Of a DNA stretch of 64,000 bases, positions 40,785 to 63,484 are shown piece after piece; the stretch's first letter is position 1; each line of letters begins with the position of its first letter. The translations under genes and the position numbers were made by a program. The notes beneath the pieces are model-generated. The model made no database searches. It had not been told where the DNA came from and was given only the letters and a program-made list of their open reading frames with translations. The DNA is from Tenacibaculum mesophilum (GTDB lineage: Bacteria > Bacteroidota > Bacteroidia > Flavobacteriales > Flavobacteriaceae): NCBI RefSeq assembly GCF_003867075.1, contig NZ_CP032544.1, positions 1 to 64,000 of the forward strand. Direction: 5' to 3'.

Positions 40785-40950
40785 GATAGCTTTTAGGTTA
40801 AAAAACTAGCTTTAATAGCGGTGTGTAATAAGCTACTAAAACAGATTTTTGTAATTATAAAAAGAAGTTTACCGTATAATATGAACTATAAAAGTGTTTT
40901 AGTATAAGATCTTTTAAAATTTACTTGTTTTTTATCGTAGTTAGTTTTGT
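40785..40950. repeat. Palindromic spacer element, copy E1
   Basis: An intergenic element of about 165 bp shared with E2 (42965-43135). On the plus strand it begins with GCGGTGTGTAATAAGCTAC and ends with TTTTTTATCGTAGTTAGTTTTG. Internal complementarity includes TACTAAAACA (minus strand) with TGTTTTAGTA. Lies between the YwqK-like gene's 3' end and rlmH. Confidence 0.65.
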
Positions 40951-40951
40951 T

Positions 40952-41758
40952 TTACTTTTTATTAATATTTATTCTATTACCTTTTTTATCATAAAGCGTT
41001 TTTTTTATGATTCTCCCTTCTTGGTTGTATTCAATTTTTGATTTCAATTTTTCATTCTTATAATAAGTTCGCCAAACTCCAGCTTTTGTAAAATAATCAG
41101 TACCTAAATAGCTACCAGTTTCCATAATATTTCCATTAGGATAAAAACTAGTATGTGTACCTATCTTATTTCCTCTTTCATCAAATTCCTTTTCTTGATA
41201 TATAGTTCCGTTATCATAGTATATAATTAATTTGCCAACAAAATCACCTACATCATTATATTTAGCATCAAGTCGTAACTGACTATTTTTATAGTATTCA
41301 GTATTCTTTTGAATTATGCCTTTTTCAGTATATTCTTCTTTTGATTTAATTTGACCATTGCTCCAATAATTTATCCAATTTCCAACGGGCTTATTTTCTT
41401 TGTAAACCCCAGTAGATTGTAACTGCCCGTTTTTATAGTAACTCTCGTAGTTTCCATCCATTTCGTAAAACCCTTTACCAGAGTAACTACATGCAGTTTG
41501 AACTTGTCCGTTTTTATAATAAAGAACAAAAGCACCTTTAGGTTTTCCATTTTTATCAAAATTAATCATAGAATTTATAGAGCCGTCTTTCCTATAATAT
41601 GTCCAGTTACCATACGCTATCCCTTCACTATTTTTAAAACCTTCAGATTTTTTACTTCCATTGTCATAATAATCAATGTAATTTTGAGCACTTATAGAAT
41701 TTATTGATACTAAAAAAAGTACTAAAAAAAAGCTTATATATTTTTTCTTGAGTTTCAT
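40952..41758 (-). CDS. Exported YwqK-like MORN-variant repeat protein
   Basis: The 268 residues have a signal peptide (FFLVLFLVSINSISAQ) and then about ten repeats of the form xYYxNGxxxxxGxYxxG (YYDNGSKKSEG, YYKNGQVQTACSYSGKG, YYKNGQLQSTGVYKENKP, YWSNGQIKSKEEY, and so on). This repeat is found in the YwqK family, often annotated as the antitoxin of a toxin-antitoxin or polymorphic-toxin pair. No toxin is identifiable next door. It is part of the accessory patch between rlmH and the copper genes and is flanked by repeated spacer DNA on both sides. Confidence 0.7.
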   Translation of the reverse strand: MKLKKKYISFFLVLFLVSINSISAQNYIDYYDNGSKKSEGFKNSEGIAYGNWTYYRKDGSINSMINFDKNGKPKGAFVLYYKNGQVQTACSYSGKGFYEMDGNYESYYKNGQLQSTGVYKENKPVGNWINYWSNGQIKSKEEYTEKGIIQKNTEYYKNSQLRLDAKYNDVGDFVGKLIIYYDNGTIYQEKEFDERGNKIGTHTSFYPNGNIMETGSYLGTDYFTKAGVWRTYYKNEKLKSKIEYNQEGRIIKKTLYDKKGNRININKK

Positions 41759-42431
41759 TATTTAATTGATTATAATGGTTTTGTTTGTTTTGATGCTATT
41801 AAATTTAGCAAATGCACACAAAATTAAAAAACTGAAAGGATTTTAAGAAATAAGATAAAACAAGCAATTATTTATATTTGTTGCACAGGTAGATATTCTA
41901 TTTAAAGTTCAAGTGCAAGAATAATATTATTGATACAGACTGAAATGATTCTTTGCTAACAGGAGATATATTTATTACGGTTTTTTCATTTTTAAAAGTT
42001 TCCTTACTCTTTAGAATTTTCAGTTACTCTTCATTTCCAGTAGTTTGCTGATCTCTATTTGTTTGTAACATGTTTTAAGCAAGTAAAAACCGAATAGAAA
42101 ATCCGCGAGGTTTTTTTTGTTAATAGCTGATAAGTAGCAATTACTTATGGGAGTCGTTGTTGTACGTTTATAGTTTTTAAAAAAACGGTTCTTCTAATAC
42201 CACCTTATTACTTCCTTCTCGAAAGGTATTATCTTTGCTGTTTATCAGTTCAAAAGTAGGATATTGTACTCTTATTCTTTTTCTTTATGTGTAATAGTAG
42301 TTATTACTTTAGCTTCATATTTTGGAGAAATACTAATAAAATACAAAGCAAAAAAACTGTTAGACATAATGAAAGTACATTAAACTTTAAGACTAAACCT
42401 TTATTAATTATAATAAATATTGTAGATAGTT
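41759..42431. other. 673-bp stretch with no convincing gene
   Basis: The first 70 bp (41760-41830) repeat the sequence found upstream of the lipoprotein at 61335 (shared GCTATTAAATTxAGCAA core) and probably hold the promoter of the YwqK-like gene. TATATTTG at 41873-41880 is a good plus-strand -7 element followed by an imperfect stem (TTGCAC/GTGCAA). It could start a small RNA, but no product is evident. A 61-codon plus frame at 42287 has no family features. The rest looks like decayed spacer DNA with weak AT stems (for example TAATACC/GGTATTA near 42200-42234). Confidence 0.5.
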
Positions 42432-42964: not shown

Positions 42965-43135
42965 TTATTTTTCTGATTATTTAATTTAATAGTGGTGTGT
43001 AATAAGTTACTAAAACAAGCTTTTGCTATTGTGAAAAGTGATTTATAGTGTGGTAGGTACAAACTATAAAAGTACTTTGGTTTAAAAAAGTATAAAATGC
43101 ACTTGTTTTTTGCCTCAGTTCTTTGTTGTGCTTTC
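42965..43135. repeat. Palindromic spacer element, copy E2
   Basis: Starts AGTGGTGTGTAATAAGTTAC and ends CCTCAGTTCTTTGTTGTGC on the plus strand, matching E1 at both ends. A central stem pairs AAAGT..TTTATAGT with ACTATAAA..ACTTT. It begins directly after the reverse transcriptase stop codon. Confidence 0.7.
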
Positions 43136-43140
43136 GTACT

Positions 43141-44634
43141 TTATTCATAATATGATGCTTTCGCTATAATTTTCTTTATTTCCGTTTTTGACACCTTTTT
43201 CTTTGTCTTGGTAATTGTTTTTTCTTCTATAATTGAAGTCTTGTTAAAGATATCCTTCAATTTGTCGTTTAACCAATCAATATTCCAAATTATAACAGTA
43301 TTGTCAGTTACCTTTTTACAAAGAGGTTCAGTATAGGTCTCAGCTTTATTTATTTTTAAATTCAATCTCTGAAACCAAACCATCATAAACGATGAATTAG
43401 GAACTTCTTTAAATTTGTTTCTAATTTTTTCAGCTAATACAAGTTTCTCTTTATCGTCTTTAATTCTACTTAAGAAAATGCTCAAAATTGCGATACAAGT
43501 CGGAACAACTCTAGGGTTTCTCAAAGCAATTTCGGTAACGAGACTTATTAAAGTCTCTAAGTTGTAGTCCTTTTTCTTTGATTTTTCAAGCACAACCAAG
43601 AAATCACGTATCTGTGTTTCTATTGTCCCTGAATTTGGAAAACTCTCGGAAAGTAGATAGAGTTGAATCAACCACTTTTGCTTATTTCCTGTAATGACTT
43701 GATTACTTATCCAATATTTTTTATCTGGTTTCAAAGAGCTTTTAATAATGTCACTAGATGCTGTTGTTTTGTCAGCATTAAGTTTAAGACCAATGTTAGA
43801 TAAAATTTCAGATAGTTCTTTTGCAATTTGTTCGGCTAGGAAAGAATTATTTGTAAATATCCTGTAATCATCTCTAAATCGTAAAATTCGATAATCTTTA
43901 ACTTCTTTTGAATCTAGCTTTTCAGTTAATAGCAAGTCTACATAGCCAAGAACTATTTCAGCTATAAAGTCCATTAATACACTACCTTGAGGAATTCCGT
44001 TTGTTTGACCATAGGACATATCTTGCAAGTGATTGTCAATTGTATTTCCAAGTAATGAATTCTTTCTGTTTTTTTTGGCTTTTAATTTCGTGTGAATTGC
44101 CCAAGGAATGGAATGCGTATAAATAGAACTATAACAGTCTGCAATATCTGTGTGTAAAACATATTTAAAGTCCAAAGATAGCGTGAGTGATTTTTGTTCA
44201 ATCATTTGCCACCAATTCAAAATTTGTGCAGTCTTATTAGTTTTTGCTTCAGATTCAGAAATTGCTGGTAAACTATGACATTCAATTTTATCGTTTGCTT
44301 GGAAAACAGCGAACCTATCTTTTAAAATTTTCCAATTAGATTCTTTTGTAATTGAGTTTACTAATGAAACATAAATTGCTGGATTAATTAATTGAAATGG
44401 TCTCCAAGCAAACTTTCCATCTTTGTTAGACAGCAGTTTGTAATTTACATTCTCTAAATCTCTAGGACTTTTATCTCTAAAATCAGAAATATTTTTTCCT
44501 TTTAGAGTTTTGTCAATTTTGTCAAGTAATTCTTGAAACGAAAAGTACTCTGGCAAACTGATATTGCTATAACTTTCTTGTTTTAAAAGTAAAGTTTTAG
44601 CTTCTTCATTAGTCAGTTTTAAAATGTCTTTCAT
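43141..44634 (-). CDS. Defence-type (UG/Abi-class) reverse transcriptase
   Basis: A 497-residue RNA-directed DNA polymerase. Motif A is HTDIADCYSSIYTHSIPWA (catalytic Asp163). Motif B is NGIPQGSVLMDFIAE (212-226). Motif C is LRFRDDYRIF, with the catalytic pair Asp255/Asp256 in RDD context instead of YADD. The IYTHSIPWA block after motif A is typical of the Abi/unknown-group reverse transcriptases that make up the DRT anti-phage systems. Residues from about 310 form a helical repeat-like domain (ISLVTEIALRNPRVVPTCIA), also typical of that class. There is no maturase, integrase or retron-like thumb. Exact DRT subtype unresolved. The codon use and AT content look like the neighbours. A 23-bp tandem array lies 160 bp upstream. 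Confidence 0.88.
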   Translation of the reverse strand: MKDILKLTNEEAKTLLLKQESYSNISLPEYFSFQELLDKIDKTLKGKNISDFRDKSPRDLENVNYKLLSNKDGKFAWRPFQLINPAIYVSLVNSITKESNWKILKDRFAVFQANDKIECHSLPAISESEAKTNKTAQILNWWQMIEQKSLTLSLDFKYVLHTDIADCYSSIYTHSIPWAIHTKLKAKKNRKNSLLGNTIDNHLQDMSYGQTNGIPQGSVLMDFIAEIVLGYVDLLLTEKLDSKEVKDYRILRFRDDYRIFTNNSFLAEQIAKELSEILSNIGLKLNADKTTASSDIIKSSLKPDKKYWISNQVITGNKQKWLIQLYLLSESFPNSGTIETQIRDFLVVLEKSKKKDYNLETLISLVTEIALRNPRVVPTCIAILSIFLSRIKDDKEKLVLAEKIRNKFKEVPNSSFMMVWFQRLNLKINKAETYTEPLCKKVTDNTVIIWNIDWLNDKLKDIFNKTSIIEEKTITKTKKKVSKTEIKKIIAKASYYE

Positions 44635-44751
44635 TTATGTTACTTGGTTTTTAGGTATGAAGCATAACTAGTTTATATACGTAATAAAATTACTTATATA
44701 TTCCTTTTACGGTAGGGTATACGGAACTTTTAGCAATTTTATTAACACTCT

Positions 44752-44759
44752 CAAATATA
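44752..44759 (-). promoter_or_regulatory. Likely promoter (-7) of the reverse transcriptase
   Basis: TATATTTG on the minus strand, predicting a leader of roughly 110 nt. The tandem array lies upstream of this promoter, separated by an AT hairpin (AAAAAAGT/ACTTTTTT, about 44774-44791). No good -33 is visible. Confidence 0.5.
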
Positions 44760-44793
44760 AAAAAAGTAAGATAAAAAAGTGTAACTTTTTTTA

Positions 44794-45158
44794 TCGGGTC
44801 GACACCCCAAGCCTAATCGGGTCGACACCCCAAGCCTAATCGGGTCGACACCCCAAGCCTAATCGGGTCGACACCCCAAGCCTAATCGGGTCGACACCCC
44901 AAGCCTAATCGGGTCGACACCCCAAGCCTAATCGGGTCGACACCCCAAGCCTAATCGGGTCGACACCCCAAGCCTAATCGGGTCGACACCCCAAGCCTAA
45001 TCGGGTCGACACCCCAAGCCTAATCGGGTCGACACCCCAAGCTTAATCGGGTCAACACTCCTTGCCTAAGGGGAGTGACACTCCCTCGGTAAGGGGAACG
45101 ATGCTCCCCGCCTAAGGGGAGTGTCATTCACTGCCTAAGGGGAGCAACTTCAAACAAG
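44794..45158. repeat. Tandem array of 23-bp hairpin-forming repeats
   Basis: Eleven nearly identical 23-bp units run from 44794 to 45046. Each carries GGGTCGACACCCC followed by AAGCCTAATC, and the eleventh differs by one base. Unit 12 (45047-45069) is intermediate. Units 13-15 (45070-45138) have diverged to a GGGGAGTG-type sequence, and a partial unit ends the array. Every unit keeps a small inverted repeat (GGGT/ACCC with loop CGAC, or GGGAGT/ACTCCC with loop GAC). It is over 55% G+C in an otherwise very AT-rich genome. No CRISPR-like unique spacers are present, and no long open frame crosses the array. It lies between the reverse transcriptase (minus strand, 160 bp away) and the copper genes. 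Confidence 0.95.
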
Positions 45159-45229
45159 TAAAAAGGTAAAATATTCGTATTGTGTAGAAAAATGTTTGTT
45201 AGGTGCTGTGAAGTATAAAGAAGTCTTTT

Positions 45230-45263
45230 TAAAAACAAATACACCCCAAAGAGGAGTGTATTT
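45230..45263 (-). terminator. Likely terminator of the copper group
   Basis: AAATACAC (45237-45244) pairs with GTGTATTT (45256-45263), plus two inner GC pairs. On the minus strand it is followed by a T-rich run. It lies about 100 bp past the HMA gene and separates it from the repeat array. Confidence 0.6.
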
Positions 45264-45365
45264 AAATGTAAAGTTTTATAAATAGTTAACTTAATAGCTT
45301 ACAAAAGCACAGGTGTTTTTGTTTGTTTCAATTTGTACCGTAAGTGAGAATTGTGTACTTACTTT

Positions 45366-45587
45366 TTATACTAAAGGCTCAGCTTTAAAACCTTTGCTTT
45401 TTACAATAGCAATTACTTCATCCGCAGTAATTCCTTTAGAACTTACGGTAAGAACTTTATCATCAAAATTAGTATCTACATTCCAATGGCAAATACCTTT
45501 AGCATTGTCTAAATCAGTTTGTACTTTTGATACACATCCTCCGCAGTTAAGGTTTGTTTTGAATTTTAACTCTTTATTATTTTCCAT
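45366..45587 (-). CDS. Small HMA-domain copper chaperone (CopZ-like)
   Basis: A 73-residue single heavy-metal-associated domain with the metal-binding motif NCGGCVSKV (CxxC) and the ferredoxin-like pattern ending in VKSKGFKAEPLV. It would pass Cu(I) to the CopA ATPase encoded upstream. It lies 158 bp after copA, and its upstream gap contains the palindrome TTGTACAA, also found before copA. Confidence 0.88.
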   Translation of the reverse strand: MENNKELKFKTNLNCGGCVSKVQTDLDNAKGICHWNVDTNFDDKVLTVSSKGITADEVIAIVKSKGFKAEPLV

Positions 45588-45650
45588 TTATATTAAAAAT
45601 TTATTTGTTATTGAATACTGCAAATTTCAGCACAACACCGTTGTTTGTTG

Positions 45651-45658
45651 TTGTACAA
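45651..45658. promoter_or_regulatory. TTGTACAA palindrome upstream of the HMA gene
   Basis: Perfect 8-bp palindrome 64 bp before the HMA start codon; the same word occurs upstream of copA (48182-48189). Candidate operator of a shared copper regulator. Nearby ACAAC/GTTGT also forms a small inverted repeat. Confidence 0.35.
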
Positions 45659-45744
45659 TTTTAAGATTGATTTGTGAGATTTACAGATTTACTTATTAAG
45701 TGAGATTTAAAACGTTCCGACACTTGCTAGTACCGAAACACTTG

Positions 45745-48165
45745 TTACTTTTTCCACTTTAATCGTAAGCTATTGCTAACCACACTAACACTACTCATAG
45801 CCATAGCTGCACCAGCAATCATAGGGTTTAATAAGAAACCATTAAATGGGTATAAAATACCAGCTGCAATAGGAATACCAATAAGGTTATAAATAAATGC
45901 CCAAAATAGGTTTTGTTTAATGGTAGCCACCGTTTGTTTTGATAGTTTTATAGCCTGCGGAATTTTACTTAGGTCAGATGATATAATGGTCATTTTAGCA
46001 ACATCCATCGCAATATCACTACCTTTTCCCATGGCAATACTCACATCAGCAGTAGCTAGGGCAGTACTGTCGTTAATACCATCACCCACCATGGCAACAG
46101 TTTTTCCTTGTTGTTGTAATTCTTTTACAAAATCAGCTTTGTGTTGTGGTAACACTTCAGCTTTGTAATGTTGAATACCTGTTTCTTCAGCAATTGATTT
46201 TGCAGTAGCTTCGTTGTCACCCGTAAGCATGTATAGTTCAATATCCATAGTCTGTAGTTCCTTAATAGCTTGTACCGAGGTTTCTTTTATTTTGTCAGAA
46301 ATAGCAAGTACAGAAAGTGCTTCTTTACTATTAGCAAACCAAATAACAGTTTTTGCTTGTTTGCTCCATTCGTCCGCCTGTTTTAAAAGTTCGTCCGCTA
46401 TGGTAACCTTATTATTTTCAGTCAATAACTTTTTATTACCCACAAAAAAGGTTTCTCCGTTATAATCAGCCTTAGCACCCTTACCTGTAATACTGTCGAA
46501 ATTTGTTAGTGGGGTAGTGGCAGTATCTCCTAAAAACTTTACAACTGCTTCTGCTAATGGATGTTCAGATTTTTTCTCAATACTTAAAAGAATGTTTTTA
46601 GCGGTATCATTATTCTGTAACCAAGATATACCAGTAACCTCTGGTTTTCCTTCGGTAATAGTTCCTGTTTTATCTAAAATAATAGCGTTTACTTTTTTAG
46701 CAGATTCAAGGCTTTCAGCATCTTTAATTAAAATACCTTTTTCGGCACCTTTACCAACGCCCACCATAATAGCGGTAGGAGTGGCAAGACCTAAAGCACA
46801 AGGACATGCAATAACCAATACGGTGATGGCAGCTAACAATCCTTGAACCACTCCGTTATCACCCCCTAAAATAAACCATATAATAAATGTAATCACAGCA
46901 ATACTCATAACTACAGGAACGAAAATACCTGCAATTTTGTCAACCAATTTCTGTACAGGAGCTTTACTGCCTTGTGCATCTTGTACCATTTTAATAATTT
47001 GAGCCAACATGGTTTCTTTTCCAACCTTAACGGCTTTGAATTGAAAACTTCCTTTTTGATTGATGGTTCCTGCAAACACTTTTTCATTTTCTTCTTTTAG
47101 TACCGGAACAGGTTCACCACTTAACATGCTTTCATCTACATACGAGTTTCCTGTAGTAACCATACCATCTACCGCAATTTTTTCTCCTGGTTTAACAAGA
47201 ATTGTATCATTTACGTTCACATTTTCAATAGGGGTTTGCTTTTCCGTTCCGTCAGGTTGTATCACAACCACAGTTTTAGGTTGTAAGCCCATCAATTTTT
47301 TAATAGCAGATGAGGTGTTTCCTTTGGCTTTTTCTTCTAATAGTTTTCCTAACAGAATAAATGCGATGATAACTGAAGCTGCCTCAAAATATACATGTGC
47401 TTCTAACCCTCTAGACTCCCAAAACTTAGGAAACAACATGTTGAATACACTAAAAATATACGCTATACCTGTACTTAAAGCAACCAAAGTGTCCATGTTT
47501 GCAGAACGATGTTTGGCTTGTTTCCATGCATTGATAAAAAAGTCTTTACCAAACCATAATAATACAGGGGTAGAGAAGGCCCACATAATAGGGTTGGCGT
47601 AAGGCATGTTCATAAAAAACATACCAATAACAACTACAGGTAACGAAAGGAGTACCGACCACATGGTTTTGGTTTTTAGTTGCTTGAACTTCTTTTCATG
47701 AATAGCTTCGAGGGTTTCTTGTTGTTTGGTTTCGTCTTCAATTAGTAAATCATAACCCGCACCTTGTACTGCTTTTTGCAGTTTTGTAGCATTGGTCATG
47801 TTTGGAAGATATTCTATCGTTAAATTTCCACTAGCAAAATTTACCGAAGCATTTACTACACCAGGTTCGTAGCTAACAATACTTTCAGCACTTCCTGCAC
47901 AAGAGGCACAAGTCATACCCAATACTGGAAATACTTTTTTAACAGTGGTTACACCGTAGCCCAAATCTTTTATAGCGGTAACGGCATTTGCAAGAACTTC
48001 TTCGTTGGTAACTGTAATAGCAGCTCTTTGGTTGTTTAGTTCTACTTTATGGGTTTCAATTCCTTCAACATGTGCTAAGCCTTTTTCAACGATTAAAGCA
48101 CAGTGTTCACTTTCCACACCTTCTAGAGGTAGGTAAATGATATCTTTATTGTTATTTGTTGCCAT
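45745..48165 (-). CDS. copA: Copper-exporting P1B-type ATPase
   Basis: An 806-residue inner-membrane pump exporting Cu(I). It has two N-terminal HMA domains. The second is intact (GMTCASCAG, Cys86/Cys89). The first has lost its first cysteine (VESEHC) and probably no longer binds metal. Then come eight membrane segments with the transport motif ACPCALGLATP, the phosphorylation site DKTGTITEGK, SEHPLAEAV in the nucleotide-binding domain and GDGINDSTALATADVSIAMG. Flanked by a CopZ-like chaperone gene downstream and an HMA-AraC regulator upstream. Confidence 0.96.
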   Translation of the reverse strand: MATNNNKDIIYLPLEGVESEHCALIVEKGLAHVEGIETHKVELNNQRAAITVTNEEVLANAVTAIKDLGYGVTTVKKVFPVLGMTCASCAGSAESIVSYEPGVVNASVNFASGNLTIEYLPNMTNATKLQKAVQGAGYDLLIEDETKQQETLEAIHEKKFKQLKTKTMWSVLLSLPVVVIGMFFMNMPYANPIMWAFSTPVLLWFGKDFFINAWKQAKHRSANMDTLVALSTGIAYIFSVFNMLFPKFWESRGLEAHVYFEAASVIIAFILLGKLLEEKAKGNTSSAIKKLMGLQPKTVVVIQPDGTEKQTPIENVNVNDTILVKPGEKIAVDGMVTTGNSYVDESMLSGEPVPVLKEENEKVFAGTINQKGSFQFKAVKVGKETMLAQIIKMVQDAQGSKAPVQKLVDKIAGIFVPVVMSIAVITFIIWFILGGDNGVVQGLLAAITVLVIACPCALGLATPTAIMVGVGKGAEKGILIKDAESLESAKKVNAIILDKTGTITEGKPEVTGISWLQNNDTAKNILLSIEKKSEHPLAEAVVKFLGDTATTPLTNFDSITGKGAKADYNGETFFVGNKKLLTENNKVTIADELLKQADEWSKQAKTVIWFANSKEALSVLAISDKIKETSVQAIKELQTMDIELYMLTGDNEATAKSIAEETGIQHYKAEVLPQHKADFVKELQQQGKTVAMVGDGINDSTALATADVSIAMGKGSDIAMDVAKMTIISSDLSKIPQAIKLSKQTVATIKQNLFWAFIYNLIGIPIAAGILYPFNGFLLNPMIAGAAMAMSSVSVVSNSLRLKWKK

Positions 48166-63284: not shown

Positions 63285-63484
63285 ATTGTGCACAACGATC
63301 TCAGCTATGGTTAGTGCGGGATTGAAAAACGATTAATTTTTGATTAAGCACTTAGCCAAAACTTCTTACTTTTTTATTTTTAAAGCCAAATTTAAAAATT
63401 TTGGAGTCTTAGTAAATAAGCACAACCTTTTCGGTTTAGTACTTGTTAGGTATGTTTTATACACCCTGTTGTATACAGTAATTT
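63285..63484. repeat. Palindromic spacer element, copy E5 (opposite orientation)
   Basis: Read on the minus strand it begins ATACAACAGGGTGTATAA and ends AGCTGAGATCGTTGTGCAC, so its ends are ACAAC and GTTGT. A central hairpin (CCAAATTT/AATTTTGG) is flanked by a longer imperfect stem (AAGTACTAAACC with GGCTAAGTGCTT). Fills the gap between the YwqG-like gene and the AraC gene. Confidence 0.7.

Follow-up and report, generated by a model that had tools for sequence, protein, structure and literature searches.

An AbiP2-type reverse transcriptase gene of Tenacibaculum mesophilum as a probable integron-like cassette behind a satellite-bearing head

We analyzed the first 64,000 nucleotides of the forward strand of contig NZ_CP032544.1 from Tenacibaculum mesophilum (assembly GCF_003867075.1), referred to as the window. 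Here a gene for a defence-type reverse transcriptase (RT) lies close to a tandem array of 23-bp units. The RT is very probably an AbiP2 defence gene that arrived as an integron-like cassette. In this arrangement, a fixed head that includes the array would stay in place, cassettes would join at G|TTR (the bar marks the exchange point), and the RT would neither make nor read the array. Comparison of the loci places the repeat array with the docking site, that is the head, and not with the RT. Three patterns stand out in the compared sequences: dispersed heads followed by different genes, attC-like hairpins whose R'' box is complementary to the start of the same cassette, and, in a congener, a core located between a recombinase gene and cassettes. 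No such recombinase was found in the genome of the window.

The RT matches the AbiP2 profile of PADLOC with 648 bits, compared with 189 bits for RT_UG14 and 168 bits for Drt6. The match covers the full length (RT residues 1–490, profile positions 4–484 of 489). Pfam identifies an RVT_1 domain, and no NCBIfam model reaches its own cut-off on this protein. These results support the assignment of the RT to AbiP2, a defence RT of the UG/DRT type, and agree with the preliminary description of this DNA, which had placed the RT in the Abi/DRT class and pointed to an IYTHSIPWA segment that is indeed present in the reading frame. In published work, AbiP2 is described as a phage defence protein with template-independent, protein-primed DNA synthesis, making DNA without an RNA template (PMC12483538). 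The window RT resembles AbiP2 over the whole length of the profile. It would differ from AbiP2 as known in its probable carriage as an integron-like cassette.

The array was called by Tandem Repeats Finder (TRF) with a period of 23, 12.0 copies, 97% match and a score of 519, and the 18-mer CGGGTCGACACCCCAAGC is exact in eleven copies. The score and the exact copies exclude a chance origin. A degenerate continuation of the same period (3.9 copies, 68% match) follows. The distance from the array start to the RT start codon is 159 bp, in line with the roughly 160 bp first given. The array had also been described as a hairpin array; the repeats stand, with 12 copies, eleven of them exact, and about four degenerate units, whereas the hairpin holds for the degenerate part only. 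When the main unit was folded as DNA in triplicate, its stability did not exceed that of shuffled units (z −0.08). Clear excess over shuffles was found only for 69 nt of the degenerate part (z −2.6) and for a 41-bp unit of other loci (z −3.6). The remaining units are no better than shuffles (23-bp at 750 kb, z −0.53, and at 1270 kb, z +0.62; 42-bp, z +0.59). Between the array and the RT lie a conserved core, about 75 nt long, and a box resembling a promoter element; both the array and the core recur in the genome.

An alternative reading takes the array as the non-coding RNA template of the RT, or as its re-integrated cDNA, as in DRT2/DRT9/DRT10-like systems. The array does adjoin the RT, and tandem-repeat cDNA has been reported for DRT10 (PMC12632851). 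However, the genome (3.34 Mb, one contig) carries ten other array sites, at 66, 569, 750, 867, 1270, 1347, 1390, 1603, 2056 and 3056 kb. The 23-bp family itself is present at 750 and 1270 kb before other genes, and none of the first genes at the ten other arrays has an RT domain by Pfam (0/10). We fetched 68 loci of RT relatives, 67 of them with at least 150 bp upstream; some matches are partial, and six have 184–800 bp rather than 1 kb. A tandem array of at least three copies precedes the RT in two of the 67, one with a 23-bp unit (locus L028) and one with a 7-bp unit (L049). L028 comes from Tenacibaculum and its RT is 90% identical to the window RT, but its 23-bp unit resembles that of the window no more than shuffled sequences do. 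Recurrence of 20–25 bp arrays beside RT homologs is therefore limited to one of 67 upstream regions, with unrelated sequence, and a conserved repeat beside the RT, as expected of a DRT with a non-coding RNA, is not seen in the relatives. Rfam gave no credible match on 43000–46000 (one chance match, E 0.95); a conserved RNA free of tandem repeats was not searched for. Since AbiP2 is described as template-independent (PMC12483538), an array serving as RNA template is also unnecessary. The proposed RT–array link is thus not borne out. Arrays occur before RT-less genes and nearly all RT relatives are arrayless, the two observations that the preliminary description had named as speaking against a link. 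We reject an RT–array system and regard the RNA-template reading as extremely improbable.

Read towards the RT, the head consists of the satellite, an A/T inverted repeat, the box TATATTTG, the core, GTTR, and then a gene that differs at every copy. The core follows the pattern AATAAAATTGCTA..TTCC..GGAA..AGTAATTTTATTACGTATATAAACTA. The box TATATTTG fits TAnnTTTG, which we take to be the consensus of the Bacteroidetes −7 box. With the 161 bp that separate the array from the RT as query, BLAST revealed eight places in the genome besides the window. Seven are copies of the head, among which the 750 kb copy has the promoter half only; the eighth (2422396, E 8.5e-4) was rejected as a head on reading its sequence. 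Among the heads found by BLAST, 23-bp arrays are located at the window, 750 and 1270 kb, 42-bp arrays at 66, 867, 1603 and 3056 kb, and a 41-bp array at 1347 kb. Three heads with a variant core are also arrayed (569 kb, 41-bp, 2.8 copies; 1390 kb, 42-bp, 2.0 copies; 2056 kb, 42-bp, 11.6 copies). The genome thus has 11 arrayed heads, nine with at least three copies. Searched against the whole genome, the 42-bp array gave seven places, six before heads and the seventh (1411 kb) running into the end of an IS110 element; the 41-bp arrays were found by inspection, not by genome-wide search.

In a genus sample of 58 genomes, the head is matched at E<=1e-3 in 18, and below 1e-10 in seven including the genome of the window. 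The window's own site is preserved in two congeners, G027C2a and G055a, with the head and the same neighbors: a 73-aa HMA metal-binding protein (99% and 96% identical, respectively) and a P-type ATPase (97% and 98%). The first genes are different. Because the congeners share the head and its neighbors and differ in the first gene, the head is what stays fixed at the site and the gene is what varies. In addition, two contigs of the congener G022 (C9 and C10, loci L126 and L130) end inside a 23-bp array, so fragmented assemblies may hide heads.

Behind many first genes lies a site, roughly 130 nt or 190 nt in length, that resembles attC of integrons. In order, it comprises R'' (ending in YAAC), a 3-nt spacer, L'' (6 nt), a hairpin that is long and imperfect, L' (6 nt, complementary to L''), a 6-nt spacer and GTTR. 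A scan by this shape rule, of which the fixed 3-nt and 6-nt spacers are part, yielded 83 sites where shuffled sequence yielded 3, over 19 recombinase neighborhoods (20 fetched, one without a recognized frame). The decisive test asks whether, within one cassette, the 6 nt that follow GTT are complementary to the 6 nt that precede AAC at its end. Scanning 28 loci, we obtained 73 cassettes from 20 of them, leaving out pairs more than 4 kb apart. In 57 of the 73, at least 5 of 6 positions are complementary between start and end, and in 52 all six are; over 2000 permutations, which keep the only bias set by the site rule (R/Y at the innermost of six positions), the mean was 5.7 and the maximum 15. 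This complementarity, cassette by cassette, is the R''/R' relation of integron cassettes.

The fold of the sites points in the same direction. On 48 aligned sites (of 66 collected), a structure of 15 pairs is 93.7% paired compared with 83.0% in shuffles, and the covariation score is 0.285 compared with 0.090. Helix 3 serves as the independent part, because helix 2 was used in selection; it is 86% paired and shows changes on both sides in three of five pairs. A covariance model recovers 25 sites at E<=0.1 in the genome of the window, the strongest at E 1.7e-26. Of these, 21 share the orientation of a head and follow it within about 6 kb, at ten of the 11 heads, with none behind the 750 kb head; the remaining four are at 614.5, 615.1, 1409.9 and 3105.7 kb. 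By this model of our own, not by IntegronFinder, the genome holds clusters of attC sites lacking an integrase (CALIN; at least two attC sites, no integrase). In a family sample of 60 genomes from 60 genera, this genome included, 55 have an attC-like match at E<=1e-6, a count made without negative-control genomes and with a training set that overlaps the sample. We also notice that one complete genome (G071, C1) has, in the rows listed, two long one-orientation blocks of attC-like sites, at 2.223–2.261 and 2.733–2.792 Mb, which are of superintegron size.

The RT itself shows the cassette signature most clearly in L028. There, GTTGTGCTT starts 33 nt before the RT start codon, and AAGCACAAC AAT GGCTAT follows 10 nt after the last codon, with a complete match of start and R'' (9/9). 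In the window, the cassette start GTTATGCTT and the R'' box AAGCACAAC agree at 8 of 9 positions. We tested 32 of the 68 RT loci, chosen for having both ends and mostly from Bacteroidota. Ten reach at least 8/9, where 2.3 are expected from mismatched pairs, and seven are perfect, where 0.3 are expected. AbiP2 therefore often, though not always, travels as a cassette.

A recombinase gene adjoins such a head core in a congener. The IntI profile TIGR02249 reaches its cut-off in none of 299 family genomes, with 187 weaker matches at E<=1e-25; the scan was scored per stretch and none of 14 control genomes passed either, so it has no positive control. Behind the best 20 of the 187 matches, a short palindrome commonly follows the stop codon and then GTTR, a motif uninformative by itself. 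Among 20 recombinase loci with any downstream site, the first segment has a start and an R'' that agree at 8 or more of 9 positions in 14, and in six it does not (judged by eye). Three loci (L179, L212 and L138), for which no recombinase frame was found, were left out of the recombinase-locus scans. The recombinase and the cassettes share a strand. In G017, of the same genus, the order is the recombinase stop, the core TTCCGCATATCCTTCC..ATACGTATATAAACTA|GTTGTAATGC, and four attC-like sites. This core is 79% identical to the window core over 61 bp (E 2.4e-6). Because it adjoins the recombinase gene and precedes the cassettes, we take the heads to be probable attI-like sites.

The recombinase of locus L157 aligns with IntI4 (2A3V) in two blocks, separated by 19 residues compared with 58 in IntI, so most of IntI's extra domain is missing. 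Two further recombinases (L149, L180) have no insert relative to L157. For these three, NF040815 ('site-specific tyrosine recombinase/integron integrase') is the best NCBIfam model, with 228, 221 and 214 bits against a cut-off of 220; TIGR02249 gives 214, 208 and 206 bits (cut-off 265). The best PDB match of the L157 protein is 4a8e. Of 8000 candidates scored in a protein search with it, 6801 matched at E<=1e-30; names among the 120 matches listed are site-specific or tyrosine-type integrase, integrase, and XerD. Within the 58 genomes of the genus, 44 have a match stronger than 1e-50 to the recombinase of another congener, G020, some of them interrupted. The other 14, which include the genome of the window (G000), G022, G049 and G055, have Xer-level matches or none, and the latter three also carry heads. 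A small gene lies divergent from the recombinase in L157 (942–1346, minus strand) and L149 (2408–2782, plus strand), with a weak treble-clef match in L149 and none in L157. It may be a partner of the recombinase.

Several points weigh against the cassette reading, besides the control-free use of the attC model. Searching the genome of the window with TIGR02249 and with the G020 recombinase returned XerC, XerD and a 126-aa fragment only; IntI was rejected and no recombinase of this class was found. The complementarity is missing from 16 of the 73 cassettes, and the signature from 22 of the 32 RT loci. Of the five covariation measures, two do not stand out from shuffles (both-side changes, 27/500; further pair types, 167/500), and pair 27–110 fails in 27 of 48 sites. 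An unanchored test of start against R'' (best 10-mer in the downstream 7 kb) is weak, with a mean of 8.56 compared with 8.09, and an unanchored search did not single out the window pair GTTATGCTT/AAGCACAAC. The weakness arises because long stretches yield chance matches, and attC-anchored tests were used instead. Finally, the window alone is no proof of a cassette, because an IS110 remnant breaks the attC-like site of the RT and the other two sites score weakly (E 0.004 and 0.08).

The missing recombinase, together with the fact that the sites are hairpins behind genes, would also suit a different explanation, in which the downstream sites are terminators or repeats like miniature inverted-repeat transposable elements, and the heads are promoters spread by homologous recombination. 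The start/R'' complementarity, however, is specific to each cassette. The 3-nt and 6-nt spacers are fixed, with the reservation that they stand in the search rule, and the recombinase adjoins a head core with cassettes in G017. We consider this explanation very improbable.

With no such recombinase found in this genome, two options remain: the heads are relics, or they are served in trans. That heads and cassettes are relics, with nothing moving today in this genome, is compatible with the cassette reading, and we hold it to be slightly short of an even chance. The sites in the window are decayed, and four genomes with heads (G000, G022, G049 and G055) gave no recombinase. On the other hand, strong intact sites exist elsewhere in the genome (E down to 1.7e-26), congeners have different first genes at the same head, and another element could bring in a recombinase that acts in trans.

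Taking the RT as an integron-like cassette, we propose the following order of events. The fixed head, made up of the satellite, the promoter box and the attI-like core ending in AACTA|, would stay beside the copper-type P-ATPase gene pair. A recombinase of the non-IntI class, which presumably moved the cassettes and acted in trans or was lost from this genome, would join a circular cassette at the G|TT point of the head. The head promoter, whose box is probably active, would then transcribe the new first gene, here the RT. The satellite is located upstream of this promoter, and would lie outside both the expected transcript and the exchange point. Slippage or unequal exchange would most likely make it grow and shrink.

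The satellite is probably passive. At the window's site, copy number varies from 12 in the window to 5 in G027C2a and none called in G055a. Among 20 heads read in six congeners (two reads stop at a contig end inside an array), seven have an array of at least three copies within 650 bp upstream and 13 have none. This variation and this absence suggest passivity. Some benefit may still be argued, because three dissimilar families and a fourth in L028 occupy the same spot. The satellite could be functional for the head, acting on the head promoter or on cassette capture as a binding-site array, as an insulator or as an element that extrudes strands. Three families of 23, 41 and 42 bp, or about 2 or 4 helical turns, at the same place in 11 heads of one genome would fit such a role. 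The units, with that of L028, are mutually no more similar than shuffled units, which goes beyond what the spread of a single family by copying would give. Besides the arrayless heads and the varying copy number, this role is disfavored by two of the 11 arrays with only 2.0 and 2.8 copies, and by most units not being hairpins beyond chance. A relic 23-bp unit also lies at 1603 kb between the 42-bp array and the promoter, which implies that the families are not fully independent settlers. We consider a function for the head possible and rather unlikely.

The features of the window are collected in Table 1. IS110 elements recur behind R'' boxes. Two copies in the genome (861519–862484 and 1608597–1609412), with a transposase by Pfam, follow R'' boxes of cassette sites (L018, L003, L123, L124). 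They sit between R'' and further sequence, and at 861 kb the rest of an attC-like site follows. These copies, and the end remnants behind R'' boxes, resemble the IS1111-attC group; some IS1111 elements insert in integron attC (PMC11187229).

Table 1. Features of the window related to the head, the satellite and the candidate cassettes
Feature	Coordinates	Strand	Basis
Left flank of head, common to 750 kb and 1270 kb copies	45145..45221	-	BLAST in own genome
Degenerate satellite end, ~4 units, partly hairpin-forming	45055..45144	.	TRF; fold of 69 nt, z −2.6
23-bp satellite, 12 copies	44793..45069	.	TRF; 11 exact 18-mer matches
A/T inverted repeat GATAAAAAA..TTTTTTATC between satellite and promoter box	44770..44795	.	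Sequence; recurs at other heads
Promoter-like box TATATTTG	44752..44759	-	Sequence; conserved at most heads read
Head core (attI-like), ends AACTA| before GTTATGC	44669..44743	-	Conserved in own genome and genus; related core directly behind integrase gene in G017
Putative cassette start GTTATGCTT, with presumed exchange point G|TT	44660..44668	-	Between-head conservation stops here
AbiP2-type RT, 497 aa, first cassette gene behind head	43141..44634	-	PADLOC; RVT_1
R'' box AAGCACAAC of RT cassette	43125..43133	-	Sequence; same box complementary to cassette start in L028
IS110-end remnant after R'' (~140 bp)	about 42985..43124	-	86% identical to ends of IS110 copies at 861–862 kb and 1608–1609 kb
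Second gene behind head, 175 aa	42432..42959	-	No PADLOC or Pfam match
Decayed attC-like site	42051..42148	-	Covariance model, E 0.08
Decayed attC-like site	41770..41886	-	Covariance model, E 0.004
Third gene behind head, 268 aa, MORN_2 repeats	40952..41758	-	Pfam
Second IS110-end remnant	40799..40934	-	Sequence comparison in own genome
attC-like site of neighboring head at 66.3 kb (head outside window)	63290..63474	-	Covariance model, E 0.005

Other cassettes also carry defence genes. PADLOC was run on chosen cassette proteins besides the RT, 17 of this genome and one of G020, which is not a full survey. Behind the heads it finds Hachiman HamA and HamB (867 kb), HEC-05 of the GmrSD type (3056 kb), SduA of Shedu (1347 kb) and the candidate PDC-S54 (66 kb, 468 bits). 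A type I restriction subunit is encoded behind the recombinase of G020, and an ankyrin cassette protein gives a weak match (31 bits). The other eleven proteins, including the two other window genes, have no PADLOC match. The loci with defence-family cassettes behind heads are L017, L018, L019, L020 and L180.

In common with integrons and CALIN, the system has a head with a promoter-like box, cassettes that share one orientation, hairpins resembling attC whose R'' and R' are complementary, and IS110 insertions in attC. Unlike in integrons, the recombinase stays below the IntI cut-off and, where compared, lacks IntI's extra domain. It is encoded on the cassette strand, directly before the head; there are several solo heads per genome, and the spacers are 3 nt and 6 nt. 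Archaeal XerA/XerC-like tyrosine recombinases (NF040815) provide the best NCBIfam model for the three recombinases tested, and differ from them in the cassette association here and in the roughly 75 to 90 extra N-terminal residues of two of the three. Bacterial satellites (PMC6749651) are likewise non-coding tandem arrays at several loci, whereas the arrays here are bound to a single genetic position, namely the head in front of the cassettes.

Integrons have already been reported in Bacteroidota (PMC8618304, PMC9668308, PMC9024848, PMC2426708), two of these papers (PMC9024848, PMC2426708) defining them by IntI profiles or the extra domain. IntegronFinder 2.0, which uses IntI profiles and an attC model of its own, gave one complete Bacteroidetes integron beyond Chlorobi/Ignavibacteriae, in Salinibacter (PMC9024848). 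It is reported to have found no integrons in another Tenacibaculum genome (PMC10013915), and this suggests, no more, that the program may miss such cassette systems. Our searches of open-access papers in PMC gave no description of this lineage, nor of the combination of a recombinase without the IntI domain, a same-strand layout, several solo heads and satellites at heads. Most subscription papers lay outside the search, and novelty is provisional.

On balance, we lean towards the idea that Flavobacteriaceae hold a separate, widespread integron lineage. It would have a XerA-like recombinase that lacks the IntI domain and takes up cassettes bearing folded attC-like sites. Its attI-like heads would have multiplied as many solo landing sites in each genome, some with a satellite, and would be loaded with phage-defence genes. 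The attC-like sites in 55 of 60 Flavobacteriaceae genomes stand against the single complete Bacteroidetes integron listed by IntegronFinder 2.0 (PMC9024848). The extra (I2) domain of IntI is held to recognize folded attC, and the joint origin of the two has been called a chicken-and-egg paradox (2016 study, PMC4792948). Cassette arrays with attC-like sites beside a recombinase without the I2 domain would make the question of the IntI/attC origin testable. If the lineage is real, its cassette genes, here AbiP2, Hachiman, Shedu and HEC-05, would represent a large and little-surveyed pool of defence genes.

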